Program-made: the position numbers and the translations under genes
The notes under the pieces: generated by a model
Databases searched by the model: none
Told to the model about the DNA's origin: nothing
What the model saw: only the letters and a program-made list of their open reading frames with translations
Source: Methylotenera sp.
Lineage (GTDB): Bacteria; Pseudomonadota; Gammaproteobacteria; Burkholderiales; Methylophilaceae
Length of the DNA stretch: 64,000 nt
Reading direction: 5' to 3'
NCBI RefSeq assembly: GCF_029946165.1
Contig: NZ_JAQSDZ010000006.1
Location: 62,001 to 126,000, forward strand
Shown here: positions 25,359 through 59,484 of the stretch, piece by piece
Position numbering within the stretch: position 1 is the first letter of the stretch
Layout: each line of letters starts with the position of its first letter

Positions 25359-25403
25359 ATCCAGATTATTCATTAGGAATACTAAAGTTAACGTAAATCC
25401 AAA

Positions 25404-25477
25404 TGTAGGAGGGGCTTTTAGCCCCGAATTGCGCTGGTACGAGTAATGTTTGTTCGGGGCTGCAAGCCCCTCCTACA
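25404..25477. repeat. REP-like inverted pair (family A)
   Basis: TGTAGGAGGGGCTTTTAGCCCCGAA ... TTCGGGGCTGCAAGCCCCTCCTACA. Confidence 0.85.
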
Positions 25478-28239: not shown

Positions 28240-28260
28240 TTATTGGATATAGAGCATATC

Positions 28261-28336
28261 TGTAGGAGGGGCTTGCAGCCCCGAAAGCAATAGTAGATTT
28301 ATTGCACAAACTTCGCGGCTACAAGCCGCTCCTACA
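28261..28336. repeat. REP-like inverted pair (family A)
   Basis: TGTAGGAGGGGCTTGCAGCCCCGAA...TTCGCGGCTACAAGCCGCTCCTACA. Confidence 0.9.
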
Positions 28337-28362
28337 AAAAAAGCGAATCTAAAGACATGTCA

Positions 28363-28486
28363 GGAGGCAATCGTAAAGGTTGTCTCCGTGGAATATATTT
28401 GTTGAAGCACATATATTCCACGCGAACGCCCTCGTGCCGAAATGGTCGCATACACGCTACATTCATTTTCGCGACGAGGGCGTCGC
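28363..28486. repeat. Three consecutive hairpin-forming inverted repeats
   Basis: GGAGGCAA/TTGTCTCC (28363-28387), CGTGGAATATAT/ATATATTCCACG perfect 12 bp (28387-28422), ACGCCCTCGT/ACGAGGGCGT perfect 10 bp (28426-28483). Confidence 0.8.
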
Positions 28487-28498
28487 TCATACAGAAGA

Positions 28499-28539
28499 CA
28501 CTTACCCATAAGATTAAAAAATTGGGTATTGAAGAATAA
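28499..28539 (+). pseudogene. Degenerate copy of the ntrC 3' end
   Basis: Translates ..TLTHKIKKLGIEE* versus ntrC ..TLTRKIQELGIEE*; exactly 300 bp downstream and followed by a second copy of the REP pair. Confidence 0.65.
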
Positions 28540-28561
28540 AAGTCAGAGGTAGAAGAGTAAT

Positions 28562-28636
28562 TGTAGGAGGGGCTTGCAGCCCCGAAGCAATAGTAGAATT
28601 TTGCGGAAAACTTCGCGGCTACAAGCCGCTCCTACA
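28562..28636. repeat. REP-like inverted pair (family A)
   Basis: TGTAGGAGGGGCTTGCAGCCCCGAAGCAATAGTAGA...TTCGCGGCTACAAGCCGCTCCTACA; near copy of 28261-28336. Confidence 0.9.
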
Positions 28637-28644
28637 TTAGGCGT

Positions 28645-30735: not shown

Positions 30736-30960
30736 ATGAATCTCCTAATTATGTATTGCTATTTTTATAACTAAATAACCTCACTATTATCTAGTCATGG
30801 TGACTTGAGACAACAGCGAAAGAGTTTGCAAACTCTCTCAATGAAAATCATTAAGAAGGTGAATGAGAGTATGCCTAAACCATTTAGGCTAAACAACTAA
30901 ATATTGGTGTTTCTGTCACATTTGTTTACATTTGTTGTAAATTTGCAACATTTGGGATTG

Positions 30961-31063
30961 TAGTAGGGGCTTGTCGCCCCGAAAGCAGTAGTGAAAATTG
31001 TACAAAGCATTCGCGGCTGCAAGCCGCTCCTACCATATGTAGGAGCGGCTTGCAGCCGCGAAG
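30961..31063. repeat. REP-like cluster (three units, family A)
   Basis: TAGTAGGGGCTTGTCGCCCCGAA, TTCGCGGCTGCAAGCCGCTCCTAC, GTAGGAGCGGCTTGCAGCCGCGAA. Confidence 0.9.
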
Positions 31064-42640: not shown

Positions 42641-42670
42641 CCTAGATTCCCGCCTACGCGGGAATGACGG
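42641..42670. repeat. Family B palindrome
   Basis: CCTAGATTCCCGCCTACGCGGGAATGACGG. Confidence 0.75.
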
Positions 42671-44605: not shown

Positions 44606-44703
44606 CCTCCCCATTTTAAGAGGGAGGGTTGGGGCGGGGTAAAATCGATGAAACTTATAATGTTCTACCCCCATCCTAGCCTTCCCCCTTGAATGGGGAA
44701 GGA
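44606..44703. repeat. Family C GC-skewed repeats (two divergent copies)
   Basis: CTCCCTCCCCATTTTAAGAGGGAGGGTTGGGGCGGGG and ACCCCCATCCTAGCCTTCCCCCTTGAATGGGGAAGGA. Confidence 0.7.
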
Positions 44704-46018: not shown

Positions 46019-46129
46019 GTCCGTCATACCAGCGTAGGCTGGTATCCAGTCAGATTTCAATCTTAGTGATTGTAATTTAGCACTCTAATATTTAACCTTG
46101 ACTGGATTCCGTCCTCCGACGGAATGACG
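46019..46129. repeat. Family B inverted pair with ~50-bp spacer
   Basis: GTCATACCAGCGTAGGCTGGTATCCAGT ... ACTGGATTCCGTCCTCCGACGGAATGACG. Confidence 0.8.
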
Positions 46130-53540: not shown

Positions 53541-53641
53541 TTTTTTTAAAATTGATCGTCTGATTTCATTAAACTCCTTTCCTGTTTCTTCATAAAATTA
53601 ATAACATATCAATAATACGCTTACAGAAGCGGAAGTAACTT

Positions 53642-54358
53642 TTGCTCGGACTAATAAACCTTATGACTAAACAAAATATCATCATACTTACAGCCACAAT
53701 TACGCCACCTCTTGATGCACCAAACTTAGCAAGAATTGACCCAGAACTTCGCCTAAAGGATTACACACAAGCATTAGAGTTTTACCTAGATTGTTTATCC
53801 AAAAAAATAATTACAGGCATTGTTTTTTGTGACAATTCAGCATCAGATATATCCAACTTACAATTAATATGTAATCAACACGAAATGAGTGAAAGTATAG
53901 AACTACTCTCTTTTAATGGCTTAGACTATCCGTTAAATTATGGAAGAGGATATGGTGAGTTTAAATTAATTGATTATGTGATGACAAAATCTATTCTCAT
54001 TAATCAGCTCCCTGAAAATGCAAATATATGGAAAGTAACTGGGCGTTATATACTTAACAATCTAAACTCTATGATCAAAAGCATTCCGAAAAAATGTGAT
54101 TTTTACAGTAATTGTCGTAACTTTCCCACTTACTGGATTGACTTATATTTACTTTGCTGGAATAAAAGATCATATGGTGAAATCATCAATAATATTTACA
54201 CTCAACTTAATGAAAAAGGTGATGGTAGAGTTGCAGAGCAATATTTCCGAGAAATTTTAGATAATAAAAAATATAAATCAAAAATTCACAAACGCTTCAA
54301 ATGCACACCAGAGTTAATCGGTGTTAGGGGTTTTATGGTCGAGGTTATAAAGACATGA
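53642..54358 (+). CDS. Hypothetical protein, possibly glycosyltransferase-like
   Basis: 238 aa ORF, visibly AT-rich; IIILTATITPP..., IWKVTGRYIL...; no confident family. Confidence 0.6.
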   Translation: MLGLINLMTKQNIIILTATITPPLDAPNLARIDPELRLKDYTQALEFYLDCLSKKIITGIVFCDNSASDISNLQLICNQHEMSESIELLSFNGLDYPLNYGRGYGEFKLIDYVMTKSILINQLPENANIWKVTGRYILNNLNSMIKSIPKKCDFYSNCRNFPTYWIDLYLLCWNKRSYGEIINNIYTQLNEKGDGRVAEQYFREILDNKKYKSKIHKRFKCTPELIGVRGFMVEVIKT

Positions 54359-54450
54359 ATTACAAACTGATCATGAGAAAGTTGGCTAATAAAATGATGC
54401 CTTGGGTTTGGATCTGAACTGAGGCAGGGTATGAAAATGCTCAAGCTAGC

Positions 54451-54576
54451 TTAGGTTGGGCTGAAGTATGAAGCCCAACGTTAATTGAAGCCTCTCAAAC
54501 GTTGGGTTACGCTACGCTAACCCAACCTACAACACCTAAGTCAGGTAGGGTGGGCAAAATGCTTTATCTTGCCCAC
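54451..54576. repeat. Family D repeats (GTTGGGTTACGCTACGCTAACCCAACCTAC and GTAGGGTGGGCA..TGCCCAC types)
   Basis: Inverted GGTTGGG/CCCAACC arms, plus GTGGGCAAAATGCTTTATCTTGCCCAC hairpin. Confidence 0.75.
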
Positions 54577-54702
54577 GCTGAAACAGCGTAAAACCGCGTG
54601 TGCAACAATTTGAACACCCTACAAAACCTGATATTTCACGCTGTCATTCTCGCCGAACGGTGACGATTGAGAAACTTACGCCAACTGTTATCATCACACC
54701 TA

Positions 54703-55644
54703 ATGACCAACACACAATCTATCAAAACCATTCTTACGTCTGCTGCAGCTCAACTTAACAATGATGAAGCTACGTTAGAGGCGCAATTGCTTTTGCAACA
54801 CGTGCTGAATGTAAATCGTGCGTGGCTCATTTCACATGCAAATGATTCCATGCAAGCCAATAGCCACGAGGCATTTGAGTTATTACTTAATAGACGGCTA
54901 AAGGGCGAGCCTATTGCTTATATTTTAGGCGTTCGTGAGTTTTACGGTTTAGATTTATTGGTGACACCTGACACCTTGATTCCAAGGCCTGATACTGAAA
55001 CGCTGGTAGAAGCGGCTTTAGCAAAAATCGCTAACCCGTCATTCCGACGCAGGTCGGAATCTAGTGACGTTAAGCCGCCCCCCTCACCCCAACCCTCTCC
55101 CGCCAGCGGGCGAGGGAGCTTTACCGTACTTGACCTTGGCACAGGCACTGGTGCTATCGCCCTAGCGATTGCCAAAAGCCGTCCGCAAGCTTTTGTAACA
55201 GCGGTAGATGCCTCCAAAGCAGCCTTAGAAATCGCCAAAAAAAATGCACAAAACTTAAACATTACGAACATAGAATTTGTTTTAAGTAACTGGTTTGATG
55301 AATTAGAAAATTCCACGTTTGACATGATTGTGAGCAACCCACCTTATATTGAAGAAAATGACGTGCATCTTAGCCAAGGCGATTTACGTTTTGAGCCTAT
55401 CAGCGCATTAGCTTCTGGCGCGGATGGTTTGGATGATATTCGCAAAATCATCGATAACTGTTTGATTTACCTAAAGCCGCAAGGTTGGTTGATGTTGGAA
55501 CATGGCTTTAATCAGGCGTTACAGGTTGCAGACTTAATGGCAGGCGCGGGTTTAACTAACATTGAAACGATTAAAGATTTAGGTAACAATGACCGCGTGA
55601 CTATTGGTAAAAATCCTTTGATTGTTAGTACGCATTGGGATTAA
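54703..55644 (+). CDS. prmC: Peptide chain release factor N5-glutamine methyltransferase carrying a repeat-derived in-frame insertion
   Basis: GVREFYGLDLLVTPDTLIPRPDTETLVEAAL, VLDLGTGTGAIALA, DMIVSNPPYIEE (NPPY). Confidence 0.93.
   Translation: MTNTQSIKTILTSAAAQLNNDEATLEAQLLLQHVLNVNRAWLISHANDSMQANSHEAFELLLNRRLKGEPIAYILGVREFYGLDLLVTPDTLIPRPDTETLVEAALAKIANPSFRRRSESSDVKPPPSPQPSPASGRGSFTVLDLGTGTGAIALAIAKSRPQAFVTAVDASKAALEIAKKNAQNLNITNIEFVLSNWFDELENSTFDMIVSNPPYIEENDVHLSQGDLRFEPISALASGADGLDDIRKIIDNCLIYLKPQGWLMLEHGFNQALQVADLMAGAGLTNIETIKDLGNNDRVTIGKNPLIVSTHWD
55037..55121. repeat. Family B + family C repeats inside prmC
   Basis: CCGTCATTCCGACGCAGGTCGGAATCTAGT followed by CCCCCTCACCCCAACCCTCTCCCGCCAGCGGGCGAGGGAG. 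Confidence 0.85.
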
Positions 55645-59369: not shown

Positions 59370-59484
59370 CTAAATTCCGTGGTTACCACGGAATCCAGCG
59401 GTATGTTATCCAATCGGTAAGTAATACCTCAAGTTAGCAAGCATTGCTGAAGACACTGGATTCCGACCTGCGTCGGAATGACGG
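59370..59484. repeat. Family B inverted pair
   Basis: CCGTGGTTACCACGGAATCCAG ... ACTGGATTCCGACCTGCGTCGGAATGACGG. Confidence 0.8.

Follow-up and report, generated by a model that had tools for sequence, protein, structure and literature searches.

Short palindromic repeats are usually viewed as intergenic. Intragenic CGTC REPs are nevertheless already known (PMC3733652), and Di Nocera et al. (2013) classed RPE-4 and RPE-6 of Rickettsia conorii, together with dRS3 of Neisseria, among these repeats (PMC3733652). In the main text of that work, CGTC REPs including dRS3 carry a CGTC tag at one extremity of a short palindrome, are interspersed and often paired, occur in frame within ORFs and have no dedicated RAYT; different REPs also occupy about the same site of recB in Xanthomonas campestris and X. 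oryzae. According to Bertels and Rainey (2011; PMC3116915), RAYTs mobilise REPINs, which are inverted REP pairs giving one long hairpin.

The CGTC-type repeats described below, situated in the prmC gene of a Methylotenera sp. and several relatives, share all the listed characters of the CGTC REPs, and the prmC case differs from those in the main text of PMC3733652 in that a single loop has been reused by several repeat families over many species. With RPE-4/RPE-6 and RPE-1 they share the in-frame location of palindromic repeats in protein genes, but RPEs occur in numerous genes within a single lineage, whereas here one gene's loop is involved repeatedly in many lineages; the putative kinship with RPE-4/RPE-6 follows the CGTC grouping of PMC3733652. 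In the recB case, too, related species have different repeats at about the same place in a gene, but it comprises two species in the main text of PMC3733652; for prmC, about 12 changes are inferred across six genera, and four cases come from other families. That main text mentions neither prmC, nor hemK, nor any name beginning with Methylo, and no other account of intragenic palindromes in prmC/HemK emerged from our literature search. A sequence-only reading of this DNA had noted a likeness to the Rickettsia palindromic elements, which agrees with this classification; its remark that no description of the repeat family was known needs correcting, because RPE-4, RPE-6 and dRS3 are classed as CGTC repeats (PMC3733652). 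The pile-up of unrelated repeats at one prmC site is thus a new variation on known intragenic repeats, and the finding is real and more general than first reported.

Two Adjoining Repeats in prmC

PrmC is the enzyme that methylates the release factors of protein synthesis. In the window (the whole stretch of 64,000 nucleotides that was analysed), the prmC frame is open from the ATG at 54703 to the stop codon at 55642-55644, and its product contains the Pfam domains PrmC_N (residues 11-76) and methyltransferase. Besides prmC, the genome (G000) gives one clear full-domain homologue match, a 33% paralogue that is probably PrmB. The loop from the RPDTE helix to SAM motif I contains half a CGTC-type REP doublet (55036-55074) and an adjoining C-rich palindromic repeat (55075-55119). 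The linker reads ANPSFRRRSESSDVKPPPSPQPSPASGRGSFT, followed by VLDLGTGTG, and contains CCGTCATTCCGACGCAGGTCGGAATCTAGTGACGTTAAG and then CCGCCCCCCTCACCCCAACCCTCTCCCGCCAGCGGGCGAGGGAG; SESSDVKPPPSPQPSPASGR is an example of the predicted linker peptide. Two different interspersed repeats, back to back and in frame in prmC, with the ORF open through both and a C6 tract in the insert at which slippage might put the gene out of frame, were precisely what the sequence-only reading had proposed. The first repeat (31 nt, CCGTCATTCCGACGCAGGTCGGAATCTAGTG) also differs at one position from the reverse-complemented copy at about 59455-59484, in line with that reading.

Table 1. Features of the window (window positions) and repeat content of the prmC loop in other genomes (genome handles).
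Feature	Location	Strand	Remarks
prmC, release factor glutamine methyltransferase	54703-55644	+	313 codons, frame intact, NPPY motif present
CGTC-type REP unit CCGTCATTCCGACGCAGGTCGGAATC	55036-55061	+	Translates as PSFRRRSES
Remnant, interior of GAC-type REP doublet TAGTGACGTTAAG	55062-55074	+	Right arm partner missing
C-rich palindromic repeat (type 2)	55075-55119	+	Translates as PPPSPQPSPASGRGS; contains C6 tract 55078-55083
Intergenic CGTC REP	59459-59482	-	Sole other genome copy found with identical core GACGCAGGTC; 4.4 kb from prmC copy
Two CGTC REP units, opposite orientation	46023-46046; 46105-46128	+; -	Further window copies
CGTC REP unit, CCC subtype	42645-42668	-	
C-rich inverted pair, diverged	44606-44703	.	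Related to type-2 repeat
Half GAC doublet + C-rich repeat in prmC loop	G000		Window genome
GAC-subtype CGTC doublets in prmC loop	G013, G027, G020, G018, G021, G118		
Worn CGTC remnants in prmC loop	G032, G031, G070		
CCC-subtype CGTC in prmC loop	G003, G188, G147, G186		
Full C-rich doublet in prmC loop	G001		
C-rich pieces in prmC loop	G127, G121		
Full C-rich doublet in prmC loop	G379		Outside family (f38)
Type-3 unit in prmC loop	G308		Outside family (f38)
Another repeat in prmC loop	G472		Outside family (f49); 83-nt copy elsewhere, 92% identity
Probable C-rich remnant in prmC loop	G337		Outside family (f25)

Each of the two repeats recurs elsewhere in the 2.94 Mb genome, as that reading had led us to expect. 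Pattern searches, from which all copy numbers beyond the window come, gave 20 matches to the first-repeat core at ≤3 mismatches (7 of them exact at the specified positions) and 6 to the second repeat (CCCTCACCCCAACCCTCTCCC; one other exact), against 0 for the reversed-pattern control in both cases. The pair at 44606-44703, previously taken as a relative of the second repeat, is of the same kind but has diverged, lying more than 3 mismatches away. In the unit at 55036-55061, a short palindromic stem bears CGTC at one of its ends; this type of repeat is multi-copy, dispersed in the genome and found in inverted pairs (26 genomes of the family contain 64 exact doublets), the window copy retaining one arm; the interior remnant beside it also occurs in intact doublets elsewhere, e.g., G186:C65. 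A search for close inverted pairs around prmC found none.

The surroundings of the gene offer some further observations. prfA and prmC, neighbours in many relatives, are 1.16 kb apart in the window (53541-54702); an ORF between them (53642-54358) has no Pfam match, and the spacer contains more palindrome-like stretches at 54440-54640 (AACGTTGGGTTACGCTACGCTAACCCAACC and GTAGGGTGGGCA..TGCCCACG). The pair is also split in several other repeat carriers. An association between repeat carriage and splitting (Fisher p 0.01) was discarded, as phylogenetically independent pairs give it no support. GTAG-type REP pairs (TGTAGGAGGGGCTTGCAGCCCC) at 25401-25477, 28258-28637 and 30956-31063 represent a second REP superfamily of the same genome.

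Unlike REPINs (PMC3116915), the prmC repeats have no associated RAYT: no convincing CGTC unit flanks any of 12 RAYT loci of the genus, and one genome (G018) contains 31 CGTC units but no RAYT match. The RAYT was therefore rejected as the mover of the CGTC repeats. In the window genome, the locus L067 (G000:C16:201-641) carries a RAYT-family transposase gene with the palindrome GCGCAATA/TATTGCGC nearby, and is devoid of CGTC, type-2 and type-3 repeats.

Position in the Protein

Alignment to E. coli HemK (1t43, 2b3t) places the insert downstream of the RPDTE helix and upstream of motif I, between HemK residues 108 and 112. In the AlphaFold2 model, helix 96-108 and strand 140-145 lie on either side of it. 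The site had been assigned to the stretch between the N-terminal helical domain and motif I; it does precede motif I, but it is situated further on than the boundary between PrmC_N and the catalytic domain. In this prediction, made with eight sequences, most of the PrmC fold is predicted with high confidence, apart from a weaker stretch near residues 220-240, and insert residues 114-137 have pLDDT <50 and are predicted to be disordered. Given the HemK alignment, the AlphaFold2 fold, the Pfam domains and the intact NPPY, the insert is, as modelled, a loop extension on the catalytic domain of PrmC.

Loop Lengths and Repeats Among Relatives

Loop length, counted from DTE to motif I, was compared in 85 PrmC of the family (Methylotenera and relatives). 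A loop of 17 residues is the default (50/85) and also the modal length outside the family, so the in-frame insertion lies where most relatives lack it, as in the RPE type. Within the same genus most loops have 17 residues; in nine relatives the loop reaches 28-54 residues and includes repeat sequence. Overall, 17 of the 85 family members, spread over the genera g1, g31, g32, g37, g39 and g43, have longer loops derived from three unrelated repeat families: CGTC (GAC or CCC subtype), C-rich type 2 and type 3 (GTTCGACAAGCTCACC). In G186, too, two families adjoin, since an inverted pair of a third family (GTTCGACAAGCTCACCACGAACGG) stands directly before the CGTC doublet. A non-repetitive linker of equal length shared by relatives was not found; instead, other genomes have the same site filled.

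Repeats were also found at this site in four genomes of other families, which show existence and not frequency, because the query favours long linkers; in an unbiased sample of the order, 20 of 22 readable loops have 15-21 residues. The inserts of G186, G379, G308 and G472 have further copies within samples of 120-240 kb of their own genomes (shuffled inserts, 0-2 chance matches), and for the type-2 insert of G001 a sample of 160 kb yielded no further copy. The loop also lengthens by other routes, since no clear repeat is visible in the long loops of G064, G151, G196, G197, G202, G203, L200 and L223. The idea that a contig break conceals an insert in G033 was rejected, the visible sequence resembling an ordinary short loop. 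In one further prmC, L133 (G063:C138), this linker is interrupted by a TAA stop (KISPLKA*KILDLG), corresponding to a pseudogene, a sequencing error or a two-piece protein.

Contigs are often broken or joined by repeats, and an assembly artefact or a misannotated frame might in principle produce such an insert; this is practically negligible here, because comparable in-frame inserts stand at the same place in independent genomes, including the single-contig G013.

Number of Origins

In a PrmC tree built with the linker removed, carriers adjoin 17-residue relatives with good support, as for the carrier and empty sister pairs G118/G117 (100/100), G188/G185 (100/89) and G021/G022 (100/92). The genus is treated as Methylotenera-like on the basis of the PrmC tree, where L070, a record named Methylotenera sp., falls within it. 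Parsimony needs 12 changes for all carriers, against one gain and 28 losses, and 10 for the CGTC carriers only, against one gain and 23 losses. The rpoB tree of the genus also scatters the carriers, its supported branches forcing 6 changes. G000, G003, G013 and G027 form one clade in the rpoB tree and may share one insertion with later changed content; the window case thus looks like turnover at an occupied site, and separate events in the family number about 9-12, plus the outside cases. The insert interior matches the genome-wide consensus of each subfamily and not a prmC-specific sequence, so shared prmC ancestry could not be read from it and this line was abandoned. Sister genomes are about 75% identical, and thus no exact empty site or target duplication is readable.

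Alternatively, one CGTC-REP insertion in the ancestor of the family could have been followed by many losses and by gene conversion with other copies, altering subtype and interior. One old insertion would explain why all CGTC copies share the same frame, and the four-genome clade plausibly derives from a single insertion, although the subtype differs in G003. Nonetheless, this history is very improbable: some 28 losses (23 for CGTC only) are needed, many of them back to exactly 17 codons, the C-rich and type-3 inserts are unrelated sequences, and families elsewhere in the order carry their own repeats at the site.

Reading Frame, Peptide and RNA Hairpins

All 14 CGTC copies in prmC share the frame NCG TCA TTC (GCG CCT TTC in the worn copy of G032) and, where the right arm survives, read GAT TCC there. 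A tally of 52 family doublets, not counting those in prmC, gave 312 orientation-phase readings; 82 were open, and of the open ones 22 (~27%) used the prmC frame pair. The chance of nine to ten events sharing one frame pair is ~1e-4, on the assumption of independent events and of landing in any phase. The prmC frame gives charged, soluble peptides (SFRRKSES, DSDFRRND) and the alternative one hydrophobic VIPTKVGIQ / WIPTFVGMT, which suggests that the peptide content of insertions has been filtered.

Several repeats concentrated in one loop and in one phase might also be expected if a mobilising enzyme recognised a DNA feature in this part of prmC. We regard such sequence-directed insertion as unlikely, as the spacing between the conserved KI codons and the repeat ranges from 2 to ~18 codons, unrelated repeats would need a common target, and none of the RAYTs found is flanked by these repeats.

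Intact doublets, as in G020 and others, are inverted REP pairs folding into one hairpin, as in REPINs, and the window copy has lost one arm. The coding hairpins can be extreme (G020, -69.4 kcal/mol, z -14; several carriers with z below -9), and 3 of the 64 exact family doublets lie within prmC (P ~4e-6 for a named gene, 0.008 allowing for 2200 genes). Both facts would suit inserts selected for a function, the mRNA hairpin or the extra linker tuning PrmC expression or activity. This is quite unlikely, however: the arms have decayed in G032, G070 and G031, the repeat families are unrelated, most relatives are without them, and the fold of the window copy has only moderate stability (z -2.7).

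In-Frame Repeats in Other Genes

A search of 187 family genomes covering two peptide forms, in one reading frame, found the doublet peptide within long frames (>150 codons) nearly always in prmC (GAC form in six genomes, CCC form in four), with one further long frame in G202. Still, prmC is not the sole affected gene, since in-frame repeats also occur in three other genes of the window genome. A type-2 repeat (LLSPSPQPSPTRGEVVQ; L051, G000:C1:208911-208931) lies just before the OB_NTP_bind domain of an HrpA-type DEAH RNA helicase. Another, on the other strand (TPSPFKGEGWGEG; L053, G000:C11:189804-189824), precedes the ATPase domain of an ABC transporter. A worn CGTC doublet (SHSVPDTESSGLKSLDTDFRRHDG; L050, G000:C16:36479-36502) is found in a TPR-Glyco_transf_41 protein, its left-arm frame differing from that of prmC.

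A Loop Probably Rebuilt Repeatedly

The prmC loop very probably reflects the recurrent, independent capture of unrelated interspersed palindromes in one tolerant surface loop, where they have been retained as linker. A repeat would land in the PrmC loop that leads from the RPDTE helix to SAM motif I, and the only survivors would be insertions with an open frame and a soluble, flexible added peptide, their survival being allowed by a loop that would tolerate roughly 10-70 extra residues. The new peptide would be translated and would loop out of the folded enzyme, and could later decay in frame or be overwritten by another repeat. In the window, the CGTC-REP doublet presumably came first, the C-rich repeat later replacing its right half; the insert is probably translated, and PrmC would have retained its activity.

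One loop of a widely conserved enzyme would thus have been rebuilt repeatedly from short palindromic repeats, with stages visible across living species: an intact doublet, half a doublet, two fused repeats and a worn remnant. As these stages are spread over species, it becomes testable whether in-frame repeats are merely tolerated, directed to a site or of use to the host, and by what steps selfish DNA gives rise to new segments of protein; the measurable methylation of release factors makes the prmC loop a tractable system. More tentatively, and with some doubt on our part, the loop may be a genuine hot spot for insertion or a site under selection, to which unrelated palindromes are steered, or in which they are favoured, in one frame and across the order. 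If so, it would constitute a naturally replicated experiment in mobile repeats becoming protein sequence.
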